Below, piece after piece: positions 14,910 through 33,905 of a stretch of 64,000 nucleotides of DNA. Position 1 is the stretch's first letter. Every line of letters starts with the position of its first letter. The DNA comes from Bifidobacterium asteroides. Its GTDB lineage: Bacteria > Actinomycetota > Actinomycetes > Actinomycetales > Bifidobacteriaceae. The stretch lies in contig NZ_QGLL01000006.1 of NCBI RefSeq assembly GCF_003202695.1, forward strand, positions 496,001-560,000. Reading direction: 5' to 3'. The position numbers and the translations under genes were made by a program. The notes under the pieces were generated by a model that saw nothing but the letters and a program-made list of their open reading frames with translations, was not told the DNA's origin and made no database searches.

Positions 14910-15344
14910 TTGATGGGCATGGGTCGCAAGAGAAGTTTCGATGATGATGAGGTACTTGCCCGTGCCCGCGGGGTTTTCCTGGAGCATGGCTATGAGGGAA
15001 CGTCGATTGATGCTCTCGTCAAAGCCACGGGTCTGCTCCGGGGCAGTCTCTACAGTGCCTTCGGCAGCAAGCGTGGCATGTTCGTGGCTGCGCTACGCGA
15101 TGCAACGGATTCAGAGTCGGGCGATTCGGGAGTGCTCAATCTGGTATTGGTGGCACTCATGGAGCTGTCAGATCATGATCTTGAAGTTCGTGGGCTGGTC
15201 TGGGATTACCTTGCGAAGCTGTCCAGCTCGGGATCTGACGATACTAATGCTGTGGCCCTTGATATCGCCACGCTCCTTGGCGAGACGCTGCTGCAGCGTG
15301 CACATATTCGGTTGCAGTCTGATGATGAAAGAAGCAAGTCATGA
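14910..15344 (+). CDS. TetR-family transcriptional regulator
   Basis: About 141-144 residues. The start is either TTG at 14910 or the ATG at 14919 (MGRKRSFDDDEVL). The N-terminal TetR helix-turn-helix is clear: ARGVFLEHGYEGTSIDALV, then TGLLRGSLYSAFGSKRGMF. The C-terminal ligand domain is short for the family, which usually reaches about 190 residues. It therefore may be a minimal or shortened member. Its stop overlaps the next gene by four bases, so that gene is its most likely partner and target. The ligand is unknown. Confidence 0.88.
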   Translation: MMGMGRKRSFDDDEVLARARGVFLEHGYEGTSIDALVKATGLLRGSLYSAFGSKRGMFVAALRDATDSESGDSGVLNLVLVALMELSDHDLEVRGLVWDYLAKLSSSGSDDTNAVALDIATLLGETLLQRAHIRLQSDDERSKS

Positions 15345-15697
15345 ACAACAAGGTGGCAATTGTCGGGCGGACGCTGGAGATTGAACCGCAGGGCTTGGAT
15401 AAGATGTGGTCGTTCAAGGGGAAACTGGCCGTGCCGCTTGAGCATGTTCTGGGTGCTAGCGAGGATCCGGGCATTCTTGATGATGCCAAAGGGCTGCGTT
15501 CACCCGGCCTTCATGTTCCCGGTAAATGGGCCGGCACATACATTGAGCACGGGGAAAAGACATTCTGGAATGTCACCAGACCGGAAAGTCCCATTGTCAT
15601 CCAACTCAAGGATGAGCGCTATGACCGACTGGTGCTCGGAGTGGAACATCCCCGTGAGCTGGTTGACCGGATCAACGCAGCCATCATCGAAAAGTAA
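15341..15697 (+). CDS. Hypothetical PH-domain-like protein
   Basis: 118 residues, no signal peptide or membrane segment. The pattern (LEIEPQGLDKMWSFKGKLAV, then VPLEHVLGASEDPG, and a C-terminal helix EHPRELVDRINAAI) resembles bacterial PH-like domains found beside TetR or PadR regulators. It is translated from an ATGA overlap with the TetR gene. A function cannot be assigned. The operon with TetR suggests a small ligand- or stress-linked role. It is the last gene before the foreign island. Confidence 0.75.
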   Translation: MNNKVAIVGRTLEIEPQGLDKMWSFKGKLAVPLEHVLGASEDPGILDDAKGLRSPGLHVPGKWAGTYIEHGEKTFWNVTRPESPIVIQLKDERYDRLVLGVEHPRELVDRINAAIIEK

Positions 15698-15766
15698 ACG
15701 ACGAGTTGCAGCTTCTGAGTTTTTCTATTAGCTATCGGCGTTCAAGTGGTTAGAAGGTTATCGAAT

Positions 15767-15811
15767 GGGCCGACAAGTTATATGACGTATCGGTATATGA
15801 CTTGTCGGCCC
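15767..15811. other. Long imperfect hairpin, probable original guaA terminator stem
   Basis: Arms GGGCCGACAAGT and ACTTGTCGGCCC are perfectly complementary, extended by ATAT/ATAT beyond one mismatch, around an 11-base loop. It lies nine bases beyond the left copy of the guaA 3'-end repeat, where a guaA terminator would have been before the island inserted. There is no T-run on either strand. Confidence 0.6.
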
Positions 15812-15819
15812 AGATGCTC

Positions 15820-15832
15820 ACTCCCACTCGAT
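15820..15832. repeat. Left attachment-like repeat (13 bp of the guaA 3' end)
   Basis: ACTCCCACTCGAT is identical to 23756-23768, the last codons of guaA. On the minus strand it encodes Ile-Glu-Trp-Glu followed directly by a TGA stop, as a guaA gene would end. Read together the two copies look like attL/attR of an integrated element. Confidence 0.75.
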
Positions 15833-16249
15833 AGCGGTGATTCTGCTGCTCCGCCATTCCAGCTACACCCAGTTTCCGCGCCATCTCGAAGCGCGTGCCG
15901 CCGAGTGACGCGACGACACGCTTCGTCGTCTTAGTGGACAAAAACTAGGACAGTTTCGAAACTCTTGTCAAGCGCAGGGCCTTAAGTTTTAGCTTTTGGA
16001 CCAAAAAGTATAGAAGATGGTCTTTCATAGCTAGAAAACACTGAAAACGCCTGTTTCGAAACTCAAACGCCATTTTGCGCGCAAGCCGGCAGCTGCGCCT
16101 GCAAGTGAGTAAATGCGAGTGGCTTGTGAGCGATTCAAAAACCGTAGGTCACGGCTCTTCGTCATCGGTGTCCGAAGTGAGTAGTCTTGGTTGACTTGCC
16201 CATAAGTTGACGCTTTGGACAAAAGCCAGCCAACTCAACGACTCCCGTA
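15833..16249. other. Island left end without a convincing gene
   Basis: Several short frames exist but none has family features. The stretch carries a 12-bp direct repeat, GTTTCGAAACTC, at 15953-15964 and again at 16053-16064, exactly 100 bp apart and each containing the palindrome GTTTCGAAAC. It also has a small hairpin (GACGAC/GTCGTC, 15912-15930). The repeats could be protein-binding sites of the mobile element. Confidence 0.5.
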
Positions 16250-16684
16250 TCATAGAAACCACTTGGAACAGAGGCCGATCTGAAACACCGAATAGACGAG
16301 TATCAAGATTCCGAAGCAGACCATCATCACACAAAGCCCGATTCCGGCCCATTTTATAAAAGAGTCTTTTCTTTGCTTGTCGGAATTAAACTCCAGCCGG
16401 TCGGGAGAATATGTCTTGCCGTACTCATCGGCCCTTGAGGCCTCTTTCGAAAGCAGCTCGAAGGCTTCGTCGAGATCTTCGGCGAGCCTGTCCACATCGA
16501 ACCTAACTTTGAAAAGATGCGTCTCGTCATGCTACTTGAGCGCCGATTTGTCCTGCAACAAATAGAACCTCTCGCCGTTCACTTCGTTTGCCAGAGCGGT
16601 CCTCTCGAGCAGCTGATGCCCACTCGTCCGCCCCACCTTGCGCAGACAGCCCTCCCGCAATGTCCATGTCTCAACGGATGGGTA
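16250..16684 (-). pseudogene. Interrupted small membrane-protein gene
   Basis: One minus-strand frame stays open from 16684 to 16250 except for a single TAG at 16532-16534. Both sides read like protein: upstream LANEVNGERFYLLQDKSALK, downstream HDETHLFKVRFDVDRLAEDL. The frame ends in one hydrophobic helix (WAGIGLCVMMVCFGILILVY) near the C-terminus. The downstream part alone could start at a GTG at 16495 (81 residues) but has no ribosome site. I do not recognise the family. A nonsense-mutated gene of the island is the simplest reading. Confidence 0.5.
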
Positions 16685-17101
16685 CTACTTGTCTGGATGC
16701 GCCTGGGGCAACATGCCAAAAGCACGCAAGGTCGCGCGCAGAACACGCAGCAGCAAATACTACAGAAAAGGCGCACGACAGATGCTGGACTTCGGACAAC
16801 AGCACTGCGGAAGACGAGCATTCTGACCACGACCGAACAACTCTGGCTACTAGACAGGCGCCCATATGGGGCGCCTTTCACTTCTCAGAGACTTAGCTGC
16901 CAGCTAAGGTATGCAGCCCATGGCTGTTTCGCGAAGGCCCGACCAGCTCGTCTTACCGCGATCCTTCTCCGCTCACGCCCGGTGCGCCGTACGCATCAAG
17001 CGGTTCAATCGTCGCGCAGACGAAAAAGCACACGGTGCCGTGGGGTGTGCTCGCGCGGTGCTGCGCAACACGTGCATTGAAAGAAAGAAGGAGGCGAACC
17101 G
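16685..17101. other. Island stretch with no supported gene
   Basis: A GC-rich hairpin, GGCGCCC/GGGCGCC followed by TTT (16857-16878), could be a plus-strand terminator. A preceding basic frame ends at 16826 but shows no family features. AAGGAGG at its right end serves the small ORF at 17102. Confidence 0.4.
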
Positions 17102-17239
17102 ATGTTGGACTATGAAGAGAAGATAAAGCGTCGTGAGCTGCCTGCCACGATGGCAGATGCTGAAAGGCTGGCGAGGGGCCTGGACCAGCTGCTCGAGTCC
17201 ATGGCGCCGGCCGATCAGCCGGTCTCGCTCGACACCTAG
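17102..17239 (+). CDS. Small hypothetical protein (45 residues), possibly frameshifted
   Basis: MLDYEEKIKRRELPATMADA opens a charged, helix-forming 45-residue ORF with a strong ribosome site (AAGGAGG eight bases upstream). Directly after its stop, a different frame continues with similar composition (PDVDKREAHRAYLGATRILE, then AQNEFYAEEQATP). This suggests that a one-base shift cut an originally longer protein. It lies upstream of the RHH/methyltransferase operon in the island. No family recognised. Confidence 0.5.
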   Translation: MLDYEEKIKRRELPATMADAERLARGLDQLLESMAPADQPVSLDT

Positions 17240-17490
17240 GGGATACTAGCCCTGATGTCGATAAGCGAGAGGCGCATCGAGCGTATCTGGGCGCCACCCG
17301 CATCCTGGAGGCCCAGAACGAGTTTTACGCCGAGGAGCAGGCAACACCAAACCCCTCGAAAACCAGGAACACGGCTCAAGCGGAAACTGCTCTCCGAATC
17401 CAAATGGAAGTTTCCTACGTCTGGTACGTTAGCATGAGGCCTGGACATCGACTGTCCCTCTATTCCCAGTGCCACGCTGTACCGCTGCGT

Positions 17491-17522
17491 TATAATAATG
17501 AAAATGCATTTGTATTGCATTT
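17491..17522 (+). promoter_or_regulatory. Promoter and inverted-repeat operator of the R-M operon
   Basis: A perfect -10 hexamer TATAAT at 17491-17496 is followed by the inverted repeat AAATGCA-7-TGCATTT (17502-17522), which would cover the transcription start. A clear -35 box is missing. The repeat sits 18 bases before the small RHH-like gene, whose product is the natural candidate to bind it. Confidence 0.6.
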
Positions 17523-17540
17523 CGAGCGACAGGGACACAA

Positions 17541-17753
17541 ATGTCTGACGGTTACAAGGACCTCGTCAAACGTAACCCCGACGAGACTGAGATCAGAAGC
17601 TTCCTGGTTGACGGCGACCAGGTCTCCGTGCCCCTGCACATCCCCGACACCTTGCGTGACGCGGCCAAGCAGGAGGCGGCCCTCCGAGGTATGGGCTTCT
17701 CGGCATTCGTACGCACGTGCATGCTCGAAGAGCTCGCGAAGAAGGGACAGTAA
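17541..17753 (+). CDS. Small ribbon-helix-helix-like regulator
   Basis: 70 residues. The C-terminal half (VSVPLHIPDTLRDAAKQEAA, then LRGMGFSAFVRTCMLEELA) has the strand-helix-helix pattern of CopG/Arc-type DNA-binding proteins. It starts MSDGYKDLVKRNPDETEIRS. Its stop is three bases before the methyltransferase start, so the genes are co-translated. RHH proteins in this position commonly repress their own operon. Here that would limit restriction before methylation is complete. The operator candidate is at 17502-17522. Confidence 0.7.
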   Translation: MSDGYKDLVKRNPDETEIRSFLVDGDQVSVPLHIPDTLRDAAKQEAALRGMGFSAFVRTCMLEELAKKGQ

Positions 17754-17756
17754 CCC

Positions 17757-19844
17757 GTGGCCGAGCCAATCTATGATATGTCGGTCAAAAGCTTCATAGA
17801 GTACTTCTACCGTCGATACCCAACCTTCATTCTTAAAACACTGCTGTGCGATCGCACGACGGGACGCAATATCATATGGGCCGACAACGAATACGAGACT
17901 TTGGGCGAAGGCTACATGGGCGACGACGAGATGACCGTCGAGAAGATCACGGGCATGAACTCCGGCATCATCAAGCCGCGCATCGCCAAGGAAGAAGAGA
18001 AACAGTCCCGGCGCACCAAGAGTCGCGCTGAAGTATTCACTCCATCGTGGTTGTGCAACGAGATGAACAACGACCTGGACGAGGCATGGTTCGGCCGACG
18101 CGACGTTTTCAACACTGAGATCATTGCAGACGATGGCGCCAATACATGGACGGCCGCTAATGAGCCAATTGAATTCCCCAAGTCGAAAGGGCACGGTTGG
18201 CATGCCTACGTGGAGGCACCGCGGCTCGAGATCACGTGCGGCGAAGCACCATTCGTGTGCTCACGTTACGACACCGTGACGGGCGACGAGCTGCCCGTGC
18301 ACGAGCGCGTGGGCTTCCTAGATCGCAAACTGCGGGTCGTGACCGAGAAGACCAAAACTCGCGAGGAATGGGTGCGTCGAGCGCTCGACGCGCTGCGGGC
18401 GACTTACGGCTTCGAGTATCAGGGTGACAATCTGCTCATCGCACGCATCAACGTGCTCGAAACGTTTGCCGAGCATTTCCGCGACCGTTGGGGGTCGGAC
18501 GCTGCGCAAGACGAACTTGAGCAAGCCGCGTGGATCGTTTCCTGGAACTTCTGGCAGATGAACGGCTTCACCGATGCCGTACCCACCAATAAGATGGGCG
18601 CTGTGACAAAGTCGACCCTGGGGACATTCGAAACGCCCAAGCCGGAACCAGTACAGTCTTCGCTGTTCGATGACGCGTTTTCCGACGCGGCAAACGAAAA
18701 GGCCAAGAAATATGAGCCAAAGGAGACGGTTCCTCTCTGTGTGATTTATGACTGGCAGAACGGTGAGCCCTTCGAGTTCGCCACATTGAAAGGCAAGGCA
18801 ACGGCCATGAAGAAGAAATTCTATGCGGTGATCGGCAACCCTCCGTATCAGGAGACCGTAGAAGGAAGCACGCGAGCAAGACCTGTTTACAATTATTTTA
18901 TGGATGCTTCTTATGGTGTAGCTGAGAAAACCGTACTTATTACCCCTGCGAGATTTCTGTTCGATTCTGGTTTGACGCCTAAAGCATTCAATCAACGAAT
19001 GCTGGAAGACGAGCACCTTAAAATTGCTAAGTACTATCCCGACGGTGCGGAGGTATTCCCTAACACCGATATCAAGGGTGGAGTTGTTATCACCTATCAC
19101 GACGAAAAGAAAACATTCAAGCCTATTCGAAGGATGTACAAAGACGAGCGTCACCGTTCCCTCGTCGAAAAGGCGCTCAAGGCTAGTGATTTTCAGCCTC
19201 TATCGACTATTGTTGGAAGCCAGGGCACTTTCAAATACACAGATGCTTTTTTTAAAGACAACCCTGCTGCGCGTAAGGTTCTGACCAAAGGTACTAAAGA
19301 TAAAATTCTATCTGCACACTTTAGCGACAGCGATTTTGCTCGCTCGTTCATGGATGTTGAGACTGATGGTTACGTAAAAGTGCTCGCCCGTGTTGAAGGA
19401 CGGCGTGTGTATCGCTGGATTCGAAGTGATTACATTGTTGAAAATGGCAACGATACACTTGCGTTTTACAAAGTTTTTGTTGCCGAGGCTCAGGGTTCTG
19501 GAGCATATGGTGAAGCTTTGAGTGATACCGTTATTGGAGAGCCCGGGACAGCGCAAACGGATACGTTTCTGGCCTTTGGCAAATTCGACAATGTTGATGA
19601 GGCACATAATCTTTCGAAATACCTTAAAACCAAGTATGCGCGTGCACTGCTAGGGGCGCTTAAGGTTACTCAGCACGCTGCCTCTGCGGTTTGGGCCTAC
19701 GTCCCTCTCCAGAACTTCACTTCCGCTTCCGACATCGATTGGTCGAAGCCCGTAGCCGACATCGATCACCAGCTCTATAAAAAGTATGGCCTTAATAATG
19801 ACGAAATCGAGTTCATCGAATCCAACGTGAAGGAGATGAATTAA
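17757..19844 (+). CDS. N6-adenine DNA methyltransferase (Eco57I-like) of an R-M-like system
   Basis: 695 residues, GTG start. Motif X is AEVFTPSWLCNEM near residue 93. A divergent SAM-binding motif I (LEITCGEAPFV) lies near 157, followed by VGFLDRKLRVVTE. The amino-methyltransferase motif IV is GNPPYQE near residue 360. NPPY marks adenine-N6 methylation. The C-terminal half is the expected target-recognition region, and bases 18880-19660 are clearly richer in A/T and in U-ending codons than the rest of the gene. This suggests an exchanged specificity module. It sits between the RHH-like gene and the GIY-YIG helicase protein, with no hsdS. It likely protects host DNA from its partner. The recognition sequence is unknown. 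Confidence 0.85.
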   Translation: MAEPIYDMSVKSFIEYFYRRYPTFILKTLLCDRTTGRNIIWADNEYETLGEGYMGDDEMTVEKITGMNSGIIKPRIAKEEEKQSRRTKSRAEVFTPSWLCNEMNNDLDEAWFGRRDVFNTEIIADDGANTWTAANEPIEFPKSKGHGWHAYVEAPRLEITCGEAPFVCSRYDTVTGDELPVHERVGFLDRKLRVVTEKTKTREEWVRRALDALRATYGFEYQGDNLLIARINVLETFAEHFRDRWGSDAAQDELEQAAWIVSWNFWQMNGFTDAVPTNKMGAVTKSTLGTFETPKPEPVQSSLFDDAFSDAANEKAKKYEPKETVPLCVIYDWQNGEPFEFATLKGKATAMKKKFYAVIGNPPYQETVEGSTRARPVYNYFMDASYGVAEKTVLITPARFLFDSGLTPKAFNQRMLEDEHLKIAKYYPDGAEVFPNTDIKGGVVITYHDEKKTFKPIRRMYKDERHRSLVEKALKASDFQPLSTIVGSQGTFKYTDAFFKDNPAARKVLTKGTKDKILSAHFSDSDFARSFMDVETDGYVKVLARVEGRRVYRWIRSDYIVENGNDTLAFYKVFVAEAQGSGAYGEALSDTVIGEPGTAQTDTFLAFGKFDNVDEAHNLSKYLKTKYARALLGALKVTQHAASAVWAYVPLQNFTSASDIDWSKPVADIDHQLYKKYGLNNDEIEFIESNVKEMN

Positions 19845-19846
19845 TC

Positions 19847-22800
19847 ATGACGGTCATCGACATCTCCCAGATAATTGCGACCACCGCGCCTGCGGTGCCG
19901 CAGATTTACGCTTATACCACGCCCGAGATCGCCCGCCATAACGGCTGGACAAAGATCGGCTACACCGAGCAGGACGTGCGCGAACGCATCAAGCAGCAGA
20001 CGCACACCGCCGACGTGCGGTGGCACCTGGAGTGGAGCGGCAACGCCACGTGGGAGCACCGCGCAGGCACGTTCCACGACACCGACTTCCATGCGTATTT
20101 GGAGAAGCAGGGCGTCGAGCGCGAACAAAAAACGGAATGGTTCAAGATCAGCGGTGAGGAGTCCCACCAGCAGTTCTATCAATTTCGCGACACCGACGGC
20201 GTGCTGGACACACCCGGCTCCGCCTCCTACACCCTGCGCGCCGAGCAGCAGCATGCCGTTGAGCAGACGGGCGCATTCGCCCGCGCCCATTGGGACAAGG
20301 ACGGCGCTCACGGTGGAGAGTTCTTGTGGAACGCCAAGCCGCGCTTCGGCAAGACCCTCACTGCCTACGACCTGTGCCTACGCATCCACGCGCAAAAGGT
20401 GCTCATCGTCACCAACCGTCCCGCCATCGCAAACTCCTGGTACGACGACTACGTGAAGTTCGTGGGCCTGGAGCACGGCTACCGCTTCATTAGCAGCGTG
20501 GACGCCTTGGCAGGCAAGCCCTACTGCCTCAGCCGCGAGGAATACCTGCGCGCTATTCGCAACAACCCGGAGGGCCCCAAGGGGTTCATCGAGTTCGTGA
20601 GCCTTCAGGACCTCAAAGGCTCCATCCGCTTCGGCGGCGTGTATAAAAAACTCAACGAGGTGGCCGATCTCACTTGGGACGTGCTCATCATCGACGAGGC
20701 TCACGAGGGCGTGGACACCTTCAAAACCGACGTGGCGTTCGACCACATCAAGCGCCACTTCACGCTGCACCTCTCCGGTACACCCTTCAAGGCCATCGCC
20801 AACGAAAAGTTCGCCGATGATGCCATCTATAACTGGACCTATGCCGATGAACAGCAGGCCAAGGGCGACTGGCCCGCCGACTCCGAGCAGCCGAACCCCT
20901 ACGCCGACCTCCCCAAGCTCAACCTGCTCACCTACCAGATGAGCGACATCGTTGAGCAGGAGGTCCGCGGCGGCATGAAGATCGATGGCGAGCAGACCGA
21001 GTTCGCCTTCGATCTCAACGAGTTCTTTTCGACCAAGCAGAACGGTGACTTTGTACACGAAGATGACGTGGACAAGTTCCTCAACGCGCTCACCACGCAG
21101 GAAAAGTTCCCGTTCTCGACGCCCGAGCTGCGCGACGAGCTGCGCCACACGTTCTGGATACTCAACCGCGTCGACTCCGCCCGCGCCCTCGCAAAGAAAC
21201 TGCAGGAGCACCCCATCTTCGGGGACTACGAGGTGGTGCTCGCAGCCGGTGACGGCAAGATCGACGCCGACGACGAAAACGAGAAGTCGCTCGACAAGGT
21301 GCGCCGCGCGATCAAGGACCACGACAAAACCATCACGCTGTCGGTGGGCCAGCTCACCACCGGCGTCACCGTGCCCGAGTGGACCGCCGTGCTCATGCTC
21401 TCGAACATGACGAGCCCCTCGTTGTACATGCAGGCGGCCTTCCGCTGCCAGAACCCGTGCCTGTTCGACCTAGGCGGAGGCAACTACGCACGCAAGGAGA
21501 ACTCCTACGTCTTCGACTTCGACCCCGCACGCACGCTCACCATCTTCGAGCAGTTCGCCAACGACCTGTACGGAGAAACCGCGCAAGGTGGCGGCGACGC
21601 GAAGACGCGCGAGCGCCACATCCGCCAGCTGCTGAACTTCTTCCCCGTCTACGGCGAGGACGACGATGGGCAGATGGTCGAGCTCGACGCCGAGCAGGTG
21701 CTCAGTGTGCCGAGGCGCATCCACGCCCGCGAGGTAGTCAAGCGCGGCTTCATGAGCAACTTTCTGTTCCAGAACATCGCGAGCGTCTTCCATGCGCCAG
21801 CAGAGGTCGTGGAGATCATCCAGCGCTTCGATCCCTACGAGCAGGGCAAGGCGCAGAACGCCGAGAAGGCCAAAGTCAAGATCGACGAGGGTACAGCCGA
21901 CGAGCTCTCGATCAACGACGAGGGCGAGGTGGAGATTCCCGACGAGCAGGTCGTTGGCAAGGCGGCGGACATCTTCGGGCCGAAGGTCTATGGCGACATC
22001 ACCGTCGAATTCTCCAGCCACGTGGACGGCATCGCGAAGGCTCACGAGGCCGATGACGATGACAGGGCGATGCTCGACAACCTCAAGAAAGCCTTCAAGA
22101 AGAGCGTAACCGAGCCCTTGGTGCAGGCCGGCAAGGAGAGCTACGGCAGCGAACTCAAGCCTCGCCAGCAGCAGCAGATCGAGCGAAAGGTTCAGGCAGA
22201 TGCCGACATCCAGCTCAACCGCCAAGTAGGCGATTATCAGATCCAGGCGCGCCGCATCAAGCAGTTGCGCAAAGACGAGCTCAAGGCGGCAACCAACGCA
22301 GCCGAGCGCGCTGAGGTGAACCAACGGTACGACGAGCAGAAGGCCGAGACGTTCCAAGCGCTCGCCCAGAAGCTCGAGGACACCCGTAAAGAGCTCGTGC
22401 AGAGCGCCGGCGAGACCGTGGTGCGCGAGATAGAGACAGCCAAGAAGGAGGACGAGAAGCAGGGCATCGAGGACAAGGTGCGCGCCCATCTGCGCGGCTT
22501 CTCGCGTACTATCCCGTCGTTCCTCATGGCGTACGGCGAAGAGGGCACGACGCTCGCGAACTTCGACACCGTGATCCCCGCCGACATTTTCCGCGACGTA
22601 ACGAGCATCACTGTGGACGAGTTCCGCTTCCTGCGCGACGGCGGCGACTACACCGACGCCGAGACCGGCGAGACGAAACATTTCGTCGGGCACATCTTCA
22701 ACGAGGTAGTGTTCAACGACTCCGTGTGCGAGTTCATCAAGCTACGCGAGTGCCTGGCCAACTACTTCGACGAGTCCCAGACAGAGGACATCTTCGACTA

Positions 22801-23224
22801 CGTGCCGCCCCAGAAGACCAACCAGATCTTCACGCCGCGCAACGTCGTAGTTGAGATGGTGGACCTTTTCGAGAAGGAGAACCCGGGCTGCTTCGACGAT
22901 CCGAACCACACCTTCGCCGACCTGTACATGAAGTCTGGCCTGTACATCACTGAGATCATCAAGCGGCTGTATCGAAGCGACGGCATGAAGGCCGCCTTCC
23001 CAGATGACCGCGAGCGACTGGACCATATCCTGGAGCGCCAGGTGTTCGGTATCGCGCCCACCAAGATCATATACGAGATCGCCACGCACTTCATCCTGGG
23101 CTTCCACGACGAAGTCGGCCATGGATGCGACTCGAACTTCGAACTCGCGGACTCCGCGGAGCTTGCCAAGGAGGGCACGCTGGATGCTTACGTTGAACGC
23201 GTTTTCGGGCCCAAGCTAAGTTAG
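19847..23224 (+). CDS. GIY-YIG (T5orf172-like) nuclease / DEAH helicase with methyltransferase-like C-terminus
   Basis: 1125 residues, starting two bases after the methyltransferase stop, with AAGGAG upstream. Residues 17-103 fit a T5orf172/Mug113-type GIY-YIG fold: IYAYTTPE, TKIGYT, and a distal H-and-EWF pattern. An SF2 motor follows: Walker A AKPRFGKT near 162, IIDEAHEG near 280, LSGTPFK near 307, QLTTGVTVPEW near 500. Residues 700-900 are charged and probably coiled. The last 140 residues look like a DNA methyltransferase start without a catalytic site: QIFTPRNVVVEMVD near 992, then DLYMKSGLYITE near 1022, with no NPPY. It is probably the ATP-driven restriction subunit. Confidence 0.82.
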   Translation: MTVIDISQIIATTAPAVPQIYAYTTPEIARHNGWTKIGYTEQDVRERIKQQTHTADVRWHLEWSGNATWEHRAGTFHDTDFHAYLEKQGVEREQKTEWFKISGEESHQQFYQFRDTDGVLDTPGSASYTLRAEQQHAVEQTGAFARAHWDKDGAHGGEFLWNAKPRFGKTLTAYDLCLRIHAQKVLIVTNRPAIANSWYDDYVKFVGLEHGYRFISSVDALAGKPYCLSREEYLRAIRNNPEGPKGFIEFVSLQDLKGSIRFGGVYKKLNEVADLTWDVLIIDEAHEGVDTFKTDVAFDHIKRHFTLHLSGTPFKAIANEKFADDAIYNWTYADEQQAKGDWPADSEQPNPYADLPKLNLLTYQMSDIVEQEVRGGMKIDGEQTEFAFDLNEFFSTKQNGDFVHEDDVDKFLNALTTQEKFPFSTPELRDELRHTFWILNRVDSARALAKKLQEHPIFGDYEVVLAAGDGKIDADDENEKSLDKVRRAIKDHDKTITLSVGQLTTGVTVPEWTAVLMLSNMTSPSLYMQAAFRCQNPCLFDLGGGNYARKENSYVFDFDPARTLTIFEQFANDLYGETAQGGGDAKTRERHIRQLLNFFPVYGEDDDGQMVELDAEQVLSVPRRIHAREVVKRGFMSNFLFQNIASVFHAPAEVVEIIQRFDPYEQGKAQNAEKAKVKIDEGTADELSINDEGEVEIPDEQVVGKAADIFGPKVYGDITVEFSSHVDGIAKAHEADDDDRAMLDNLKKAFKKSVTEPLVQAGKESYGSELKPRQQQQIERKVQADADIQLNRQVGDYQIQARRIKQLRKDELKAATNAAERAEVNQRYDEQKAETFQALAQKLEDTRKELVQSAGETVVREIETAKKEDEKQGIEDKVRAHLRGFSRTIPSFLMAYGEEGTTLANFDTVIPADIFRDVTSITVDEFRFLRDGGDYTDAETGETKHFVGHIFNEVVFNDSVCEFIKLRECLANYFDESQTEDIFDYVPPQKTNQIFTPRNVVVEMVDLFEKENPGCFDDPNHTFADLYMKSGLYITEIIKRLYRSDGMKAAFPDDRERLDHILERQVFGIAPTKIIYEIATHFILGFHDEVGHGCDSNFELADSAELAKEGTLDAYVERVFGPKLS

Positions 23225-23601
23225 GCGTAAAACGCCATGGCACATGCACTCGACAGCCTGCAGGACGGGCGTGCGGAGGCAGCGTACAGCGGCGATTTAT
23301 ACGGCGTCACTCCACGGCATTCTCCCCTGGATACTCCCGCTTTTCCTGAGTGAGGAGATTCTTTACTCCCCACTAGCCACTTGGAAAAGCACCGAATAGA
23401 CACTGCTGAGAAGTCTACTGAGTTTGTTTTGGGTTTCACAGGTCCCGATACAGCGCCGTTCCGCCCTCGTGAACAAAAACCACGCATCTACTCTCGGGGA
23501 TATAGCTTTACTCACAATCCTCCGTATACTGCCCCGCACTTTATTGTCTTGAGGTACACGGCATAAAGAATGAAATCGCAGGTGAGGGGGAATAAAACGG
23601 C
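23225..23601. other. Island right end, no supported gene
   Basis: Between the helicase stop and the guaA terminator no frame has family features or a good ribosome site. The stretch probably contains element remnants. Confidence 0.45.
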
Positions 23602-23638
23602 AAAGAAAAAGCCTCCGTTCCAACGCAGGAACGAAGGC
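23602..23638 (-). terminator. Terminator downstream of guaA
   Basis: On the minus strand an 11-base stem with one wobble (GCCTTCGTTCC/GGAACGGAGGC) is followed by TTTTTCTTT. It lies within the island's right end, 115 bases beyond the guaA stop, so guaA now appears to use a terminator brought by the island. Confidence 0.8.
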
Positions 23639-23753
23639 CTATTTATCTAGTTTATTCATCGCCGTCGCAGGCGGCTTTGCCGTGATTCACGTATGAAACG
23701 AAACTCAACGGCACTGCGCGGCATTCAAAAGCGCAAGTCAAAGCTCTATCGGT

Positions 23754-25316
23754 CTACTCCCACTCGATGGTTGCCGGAGGCTTGGAGGTGCAGTCCAGGA
23801 CCACGCGGTTGATGCCCGGGCACTCGTTGGTAATGCGTGTGGAAATAGTGGCCAGCACGTCGTAGGGCAGACGCGTCCAGTCAGCAGTCATGGCGTCCTC
23901 GGAAGAGACCGGACGCAGCACGATCGGCGAGCCATAGGTGCGCTCGTCGCCCTGCACACCTACCGAATGCACATTGGCCAGCAGCACCACCGGGCACTGC
24001 CAGATCTGCCGATCCAACCCAGCCTTGGACAGCTCTTCGCGGGCAATGGCGTCCGCCTCGCGCAAGGTCTCCAAGCGTTCACGGGTGATCTCGCCAATGA
24101 TGCGAATACCCAGACCAGGGCCCGGGAAGGGCTGACGCCAGACGATCTGGTCAGGCAGGCCCAATTCGGTGCCGATAGCCCGGACCTCATCCTTGAAGAG
24201 GGTGCGCAGGGGCTCGATCAGCTTGAACTTGACATCCTTGGGCAGACCGCCCACATTGTGGTGGGACTTGATATTGGCTGCTCCGTCTCCACCGCCCGAC
24301 TCGACCACGTCGGGGTAGAGCGTGCCCTGCACCAGGAACTTTACTTCCTTGCCGGTCTTGCCGGCCTCCTCGATCACCTGCCGCTGGGCTTTTTCAAAAG
24401 TGCGGATAAACTTCTCGCCGATGATCTTACGTTTGCGCTCGGGATCGGAAACACCCTTGAGCGCAGTCAGGAAATCCTGTGAGGCATCCACAGCTATCAG
24501 CTTGATGCCAGTGGCGGCCACGAAATCATGCTTGACCTGCTCGGCCTCCCCTTTACGCAGCAGACCATGATCCACAAAGACGCAGGTCAACTGGTCGCCG
24601 ACGGCCCTGTGGACCAGGGCAGCTGCCACTGCTGAGTCGACGCCGCCCGACAGGCCGCAGATGACCTGGTCGTCACCCACCGTGCGACGGATCTTCTCCA
24701 CCTGTTGCTCGATGATGCCTGAGGCATTCCAATCCGACGGCAGTCCAGCGCACTGATGCAGGAAGCGATCGATCAGGTCCTGCCCCAGAGGGGTATTGGT
24801 CACCTCGGGATGCCACTGGACCCCGTACAGCCCCCGGGAAGGATCCTGCATGGCCGCAACTGGAGCACCTTCGGTATGCGCCAGAACCTCAAAGCCTTCG
24901 GGCGCGCGGTTGACGGCGACGCCATGGCTCATCCACACATCCTGCCGGGCGGGCGAATCCTGCAGTATTCCTTTGGCGCTGTCGATGAAGGCCTTGGTCT
25001 TGCCGTACTCCCCCAAGGCCGCCTTGTCCACCTCGCCGCCAAGCTCATGGGCCATGACCTGGAAGCCATAGCAGATGCCCAGCACGGGCACCCCCACTTC
25101 GAAGATCCGCCTGTCAATCGTAGGCGCCCCGTTCACGTATACGGAGGCTGGACCGCCTGAGAGGATTACCGCCTTGGGATCCTTGGCTAGCATCCGGTCC
25201 AGACTCATCGAATGAGGCACCAGCTCGGAATAGACCCCCGCCTCCCTGACTCGACGAGCGATCAGCTGGGCGTACTGCGCACCGAAATCGACCACCAGCA
25301 CGGGACCCTGTGCCAT
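23754..25316 (-). CDS. guaA: GMP synthase (glutamine-hydrolysing)
   Basis: 520 residues from ATG 25316, with AAGGAG upstream; a longer frame to 25487 lacks one. It starts [20 protein letters not shown]. The amidotransferase domain has the nucleophile in VLGICYGFQ and GVQWHPEV. The ATP pyrophosphatase domain has the P-loop [10 protein letters not shown] near residue 235, and the dimerisation tail ends KPPATIEWE. It turns XMP, glutamine and ATP into GMP. The last 13 coding bases are the right repeat of the adjoining island. Integration at this site keeps the protein sequence intact. Confidence 0.97.
23756..23768. repeat. Right attachment-like repeat within guaA 3' end
   Basis: ACTCCCACTCGAT, the second copy of the 13-bp repeat at 15820-15832. 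It encodes the terminal Ile-Glu-Trp-Glu of GuaA on the minus strand. Confidence 0.75.
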
Positions 25317-25656
25317 AAGACTCCTTATATATATAAGTATGCTGTATCTGCCATGAATATCTGTGAACGACGATTCCACGCCTACAGACATGTCCAGTAT
25401 GGTTGTTGTTTTCGACAATGCTACCGTCATTGAGCCCTTATCGGCACCCCCGATAGGCAGTCGTGTCTGCAAAGCAGACAATTCCATCGCATTTTCTCAC
25501 AAGAGCGAACACACACTGCAAGAAAACGTTCAGAAAAGTCGTCTCGTTCACGTACCATGAAGCCATTGGATATGGACTCGACGGATGTCTGAATTGACAC
25601 TGTTCGGGCCCATAACCGAGGTAAATAAACAATCGCACTAAAGTGCAGGAGTACAC
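25317..25656. promoter_or_regulatory. Divergent guaA/xfp regulatory region
   Basis: Contains the perfect 14-bp palindrome CTTATATATATAAG (25324-25337), which overlaps the guaA ribosome site. A tight hairpin TGTCTGC-AAA-GCAGACA lies at 25464-25480. A consensus -35 TTGACA is at 25594-25599 about 60 bases before xfp, without a clear -10 at normal spacing. No coding frame is convincing. Confidence 0.5.
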
Positions 25657-33831: not shown

Positions 33832-33905
33832 CGGGCTATAGCGCAGCTTGGTAGCGCGCCTGCTTTGGGTGCAGGATGTCGCCGGTTCAAATCCGGCTAG
33901 CCCGA
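33832..33905 (+). tRNA. tRNA-Pro (anticodon TGG)
   Basis: Acceptor CGGGCTA pairs with TAGCCCG. The anticodon stem-loop is CCTGC-TTTGGGT-GCAGG, giving TGG at positions 34-36. The T-arm is GCCGG-TTCAAAT-CCGGC. It has 74 bases, no encoded CCA, and is directly followed by a run of six Ts acting as terminator. Confidence 0.95.

Follow-up and report, generated by a model that had tools for sequence, protein, structure and literature searches.

An integrase-less island at the guaA 3′ end of Bifidobacterium asteroides, probably derived from a family of guaA-associated elements

Bifidobacterium asteroides is a honeybee-gut species. On contig NZ_QGLL01000006.1 of assembly GCF_003202695.1, the stretch of DNA that was analysed (64,000 nucleotides in full, hereafter ‘the window’) holds an island lying between guaA and a host flank gene. 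From left to right, the locus starts with this flank gene (15341..15697, plus strand), which was labelled PH-like in an earlier note on the stretch and has no Pfam match, followed by a hairpin (15767..15811; fold of −27.0 kcal/mol) that belongs to the host flank, outside the island. Then come a left attachment copy (attL core, 15820..15832, plus strand), a left end-arm (15833..17050), a cargo cassette (17456..23284, plus strand) made of a small open reading frame (ORF), a methylase gene and a restriction protein gene, a right end-arm (23302..23755) that contains an intrinsic terminator (23609..23640, minus strand), and a right attachment copy (attR core, 23756..23768, plus strand). The last of these overlaps the end of an intact guaA (GMP synthase; 23754..25367, minus strand), for which an upstream start codon at 25487 is also possible.

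The 13-bp sequence ACTCCCACTCGAT occurs on the same strand at 15820–15832 and 23756–23768, and a scan of the whole 1.93-Mb genome detected exactly these two copies and none of the pattern read backwards. At the right, the core comprises the end of guaA (IEWE) and the first base of its stop codon, TAG, whose last two bases lie on the island side. At the left, it reads ATC GAG TGG GAG TGA on the minus strand, i.e. Ile-Glu-Trp-Glu-stop, as kept in a displaced original guaA end. The earlier note, which proposed a foreign island inserted at the guaA 3′ end, had pointed out both the repeat and this reading, and both are confirmed. The island covers 15820–23755 (or 15833–23768, depending on the core chosen), that is 7936 bp; these limits follow from the match of the joined flanks to 11 empty sites, each with one core.

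These empty sites come from a set of 27 same-genus genomes, all of which possess guaA and 19 of which possess the PH-like flank protein. Eleven were classed as empty and two as occupied, namely the window's own genome (G000) and B. asteroides VRA_9sq_n (G009), while the other 14 were fetched but not classed (G codes denote Bifidobacteriaceae genomes and L codes the loci compared). In the 11 empty genomes, guaA and the PH-like gene are direct neighbours by match positions, and alignment yields the same order each time: stop of the PH-like gene, hairpin region, one core, uninterrupted guaA. Once joined, the window flanks are identical to these sites at 498–528 of 579 bases, and at 51–55 of the 60 bases around the join; even with up to two mismatches allowed, each of the loci (approx. 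3 kb each) displays a single copy of the core. The TGA of the left core is also the stop of guaA in eight of the 11 sites, the remaining three using TAA. A single guaA end joined to the PH-like gene and hairpin in relatives is what the earlier note had named as proof of insertion; neither of the observations that it had set against its own idea, i.e. island-free relatives carrying both repeat copies and a 13-mer common in the genome, was encountered. Its view of the hairpin as the displaced guaA terminator holds for the position, as the stretch at approx. 15767–15811 aligns beside guaA in the 11 relatives (whose copies were aligned, not folded), but the hairpin lacks a clear U-tail in the sequence.

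It could be objected that 13 bp is short, and that a chance repeat simply brackets a block of genes of the ordinary kind that varies between strains, site-specific recombination playing no part. With one mismatch allowed, the window contains two matches to the 13-mer, versus a mean of 0.08 in dinucleotide shuffles, and one of 100 shuffles also gave two. Yet the pair is the only one in the genome, the junction is exact when compared with the 11 empty sites, and the arms are common to guaA integrase elements (see below); the empty sites and these common arms refute the objection, which keeps a negligible probability. Two other candidate origins were rejected: insertion at a tRNA gene, the window having two of these, at 33832 and 39517, and a plasmid or phage copy, the island having no near match (megablast) in plasmid or phage collections.

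In G009, 23.3 kb are inserted at the same guaA site. This larger island encodes a tyrosine integrase (PF00589, PF14659, PF14657) and an XRE-type regulator, together with an N6/N4 methylase gene, a type III-type endonuclease domain, a helicase, GmrSD, DUF4238 and TetM/TetW-family genes. The earlier proposal of a foreign island at the guaA 3′ end is thus borne out both by the empty sites and by an integrase-bearing element of a relative at the same point. Compared with the window, the left 1.2 kb of the G009 island is 92.7% identical, close to the values for the flanking intergenic region (91.8%) and guaA (92.8%), versus 75.5% for the right arm and 77.9% for the small-ORF region. In its guaA-side part, 12.6 kb have a counterpart of 99.6% identity in Olsenella sp. 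Marseille-P4559, which suggests a recent transfer between distant Actinomycetota. Most simply, one old insertion in an ancestor of both genomes would have been followed by changes to the inner part in each line and, recently, by an arrival in G009. By eye, the TetM/TetW-family ribosomal protection gene of G009 seems to lie inside the type III-type methylase gene (L007, i.e. G009:C4:168001-186000, and L008).

The G009 integrase was then used to scan named genomes, and the best 80 of 83 matches were gathered into 77 loci, G009's own record among them. In 44 of these 77 listed loci, guaA is immediately followed, on its own strand and within 2.6 kb, by the integrase gene; among the 26 with more than 90% integrase identity, 18 (G009's record included) place it 1380–1381 bp from guaA. 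Judging from these positions, the association of the integrase family with guaA extends across phyla. The window island has in common with this family an insertion at the guaA 3′ end that restores the coding end.

The end-arms provide a second link to this family. We compared the right arm (approx. 460 bp) with 47 other guaA-end loci, of which 35 were bifidobacterial and 12 were picked from the integrase scan of named genomes: 15 matched at 72–78% identity, namely G009, G054, G080, G083, G045 and ten loci of the integrase scan. The terminator inside this arm (13-pair stem, TTTCTTT tail, −22.2 kcal/mol) is oriented to stop guaA transcripts, and 16 of the 19 right ends inspected by eye, that of the window among them, show its stem, the exceptions being G100, L060 and L078. 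The first part of the left arm is 72–76% alike in L056 (396 bp), L059 (394 bp), G045 (162 bp) and L049 (125 bp), and with L056 or L059 as query it is also detected in L108, L061, L113 and G054, the last three weakly (59–66%). At approximately 92% identity, the window's left arm is restricted to G000 and G009 among 189 Bifidobacteriaceae genomes. By these sequence comparisons, both island ends are conserved end-arms of the guaA-associated element family, which is new here.

Left and right arms of family members also have the words GAAACTCAA and GGGACAAAA in common, and more generally ten 9-mers (versus none in a reversed right-arm control) and twenty 8-mers (versus six). With one mismatch allowed, each arm of the window has one copy of GAAACTCAA, both in the same direction, the right arm has a further, inverted copy, and GGGACAAAA is confined to the left arm. 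These words are candidate arm-type integrase sites, an assignment to be taken as a lead only.

A tyrosine integrase of its own at approximately 1.38 kb from guaA is the family feature that the window island lacks. A search of 69 island ORFs of at least 60 amino acids with the integrase-family profile retrieved nothing; a Pfam scan of 12 island ORFs revealed no recombinase, and no relaxase or transfer family either. The G009 integrase has no match in the G000 genome at E ≤ 1e-30, the best being 30% identity over 56 residues. The earlier remark that no integrase is visible can thus be extended to the genome at this threshold, and its alternative of a decayed or a dependent element is right as a pair, the data not separating its two halves. 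Without its own integrase, the window island is filed as a non-autonomous derivative rather than as an autonomous member of the family. It would be a cis-mobilizable element (CIME) by anatomy, with both attachment sites and the arms kept and the integration gene absent, and we infer that its ancestor carried an integrase.

With a probability of roughly 0.88, we consider that 15820–23755 is a site-specifically integrated island of the guaA-associated tyrosine-integrase family, integrase-less and a CIME by anatomy. As inferred from relatives, an integrase of this family would have recombined the core of the element with the guaA end. The insertion would have kept the guaA frame and supplied the element's own stop codon (TAG) and terminator, while pushing the old guaA end and its hairpin 8 kb away. 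Most likely, the left arm goes back to an insertion in the ancestor shared with B. asteroides VRA_9sq_n, and the interior would later have been remodelled, int being lost and a restriction-modification cassette gained. With the integrase gone, excision would now need one supplied in trans.

The cargo begins with a small ribbon-helix-helix-like ORF of 71 codons (17542..17754, plus strand; labelled by eye, no Pfam or NCBIfam match), the DNA of which is conserved in G009, G080, G061 and G073. It is followed by an Eco57I-type adenine methylase of 695 amino acids (17757..19844, plus strand; PF07669, 2.2e-13; PADLOC MTase_II, 2.3e-93), in which the NPPY motif is visible, and by a restriction protein of 1125 amino acids (19847..23224, plus strand) combining a T5orf172 (GIY-YIG-type) domain with a ResIII helicase (PF10544, PF04851). 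The methylase and nuclease/helicase genes lie side by side, as in a restriction-modification system; this cargo probably restricts phage or plasmid DNA, and the island would thereby persist as a defence locus. Some match to the 1125-residue protein exists in 42 of the 189 Bifidobacteriaceae genomes (G000 included), many of these matches being partial or helicase-only, and near full-length matches occur in 18 other genomes (48–93% identity). Neither of the two restriction-modification proteins has a sequence relative among solved structures at E ≤ 0.001. Eight further small island ORFs matched no Pfam family at E ≤ 0.01, and no Rfam match was obtained at gathering scores for 15000–24500. In GC content, the island is not sharply set apart.

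The cassette as a block (17456–23284) is also found in G061 and G073, in blocks of approximately 83% and 89.6% identity, and there it lies away from guaA: in G061, guaA is approximately 90 kb off on the same contig, and in G073 it is on another contig. A non-matching gap inside the methylase gene runs from approximately 18851 to 19698 (G073) or 19846 (G061) and probably corresponds to a swapped DNA-recognition region. The middle of the methylase gene (18851–19698) falls in a dip of lower GC content (approx. 48%) and is unlike the G061 and G073 copies, which are otherwise 83–90% identical. By eye, the C-terminus of the restriction protein (22780–23200) resembles the beginning of an adenine methylase: it has a YMKSGLY block, which no NPPY motif follows.

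That this cassette occurs elsewhere without the arms bears on another history, which is compatible with the CIME anatomy: the island would be dead and fixed, its arms being relics of the ancestral insertion, the restriction-modification cassette having come separately by homologous or illegitimate recombination, and the 8-kb unit never having moved as a whole. The left arm is consistent with such a history, being 92–93% identical to G009 up to approximately 17050 and 78% thereafter, and so is G080, which holds the small ORF and the right arm at guaA with no recognizable left copy. However, the two cores of the window are identical, which a long-dead remnant would not need, even though selection on the guaA coding sequence keeps the right one. 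In our view, the odds of this history are even.

The search was extended to the 189 Bifidobacteriaceae genomes. The integrase was detected at E ≤ 1e-30 in six of them (G009, G084, G085, G091, G096 and G100) and the right arm in seven (G000, G009, G045, G054, G080, G083 and G085); G085 was left out of the latter count because its match covers only 32 bp, and among the remaining six genomes only G009 also has the integrase. In G045 (L149), two islands stand in tandem at guaA, the outer left end being 9466 bp from the gene: the outer unit is approximately 7.6 kb long, and the inner unit (1876 bp) has exact 13-bp cores, both arms and a middle that looks IS3-like by eye. Of 20 further Bifidobacteriaceae loci, nine were judged by the shared neighbour gene, three (G054, G070 and G083) by another neighbour, and eight were not classed. 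By the shared neighbour gene, G040 and G069 have an empty guaA site, and inserts of approximately 2 to 13.5 kb occupy it in G080, G045, G050, G058, G059, G067 and G100; the site is thus used beyond the element family of the window. G100 (L162), G085 (L161), G084 (L163) and G096 (L164) carry integrase relatives at 53–59% identity, 1.1–2.0 kb from guaA, that of G084 having one internal stop. The right arms of these four loci show no match to the family right arm, save for the 32 bp in G085.

Right arms at guaA in six genomes with a matching integrase in only one of them, the inner unit of G045 and the near-identical autonomous guaA elements found in several genera would fit a standing class of arm-bounded, integrase-less islands that borrow the integrases of autonomous guaA elements. 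Against such trans-mobilized satellites, however, the set holds one genome per species, and the left arm at approximately 92% is confined to two of the 189 genomes, so that these include no copy of the same integrase-less island in a distant host; independent decay explains the pattern equally well. We consider it unlikely that the window island belongs to such a class. Slightly less likely still is the broader version, in which exchangeable cassettes between fixed arms would be moved by integrases travelling between Coriobacteriia, Actinomycetaceae and bifidobacteria.

Several observations weigh against our reading of 15820–23755 as an integrated, integrase-less member of the guaA-associated family, beside the one shuffle in 100 already mentioned. 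In 22 of the 77 integrase loci the stretch lacks a guaA end, and in 11 more guaA is otherwise arranged; some of these exceptions may be due to short contigs or tandem copies. The left core of G009 has drifted, with 10 of 13 bases the same. When 14–18 kb downstream of guaA were searched in 34 other loci, an exact second core was retrieved in G045 only, and the eight further loci with one or two mismatches place theirs mostly at chance-like positions. The site is empty in G020, even though its PH-like gene is 97.2% identical to that of the window (G009: 96.9%); G020 has 73.8% identity to the window in the intergenic region and 91.8% in guaA. Lastly, the window's right arm reaches only 72–78% identity to integrase-bearing relatives, recognition by their integrase being putative, and restriction activity of the cargo is predicted from domains only.

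The guaA 3′ end is an established insertion target, as the earlier note stated and as passages of PMC5704250, PMC9376610 and PMC4701971 report. CIMEs are described in part of PMC5704250 as elements that have lost the integration gene and kept attL and attR, with accretion of an incoming element at attR; the window island, known here from its sequence, is alike in both respects, and such accretion would fit the two tandem units of G045 and perhaps G009. A close parallel by description is ATE-1 of Trueperella pyogenes, which belongs to the same phylum (Actinobacteria) and uses a tyrosine integrase and the guaA 3′ end, according to the same part of PMC5704250. The tet(W) gene carried by ATE-1 is not accompanied by other traces of IME_Rho_tet, as stated in the portion of PMC12904643 that concerns it; the G009 island has a TetM/TetW-family gene, whereas the window island has neither an integrase nor a resistance gene among the scanned ORFs. 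GIsul2 also inserts in the guaA 3′ end, at GAGTGGGA, which falls within the window core; excision of this element and the part that the integrase plays have been demonstrated, but it carries its own int and sul2 and resides in Shigella, Acinetobacter and other Gram-negative hosts (from sections of PMC9376610). The streptococcal integrative and conjugative elements that use guaA are conjugative and possess a Tn916-type conjugation module, as passages of PMC4701971 describe, and no such module appears among the scanned ORFs of the window island. A tetW cassette with a serine recombinase is mentioned in a portion of PMC5561799 for another bifidobacterium.

In the literature covered, which left most subscription journals outside its scope, and with ATE-1 set aside, we recognized no description of this family for Bifidobacterium or Coriobacteriia among the matches listed; the words guaA and integrase are absent from the text of PMC6956390, on the bifidobacterial mobilome. 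CIMEs and the guaA target are already known, and the window island adds a member, for which boundaries, family and cargo are described here. The result is a cleanly bounded insertion site in Bifidobacteriaceae, with a likely matching integrase in a close relative. Two kinds of experiment become straightforward: a trial of the mobilization in trans of an integrase-less defence island, and the construction of a tool for integration at the guaA site in bifidobacteria. A further link is that between B. asteroides and genomes of Coriobacteriia and other Actinomycetota, in which nearly identical guaA elements occur; in the plasmid collection, the G009 integrase and right arm had no near match (megablast).

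Cargo in the wider family was surveyed in 18 loci selected from the 77, with 107 ORFs in all. Among the best 25 of 41 families, ResIII was matched 14 times, the GmrSD N-domain ten, the type III endonuclease domain eight and GTP_EFTU seven, and among the best 25 of 178 PADLOC families the type III restriction endonuclease (REase) and methyltransferase (MTase) models gave eight matches each; the surveyed loci being close relatives, these counts are not independent. Three loci of other genera show particular arrangements. The Gordonibacter locus L054 holds a second copy of the integrase, and its stretch contains no guaA end. By match positions, the Collinsella locus L061 has its right arm joined to a left arm, as in a tandem or circular form, and in the Enorma locus L049 the right arm runs through a core into a left arm, as would be seen in a circular form or at a tandem junction.

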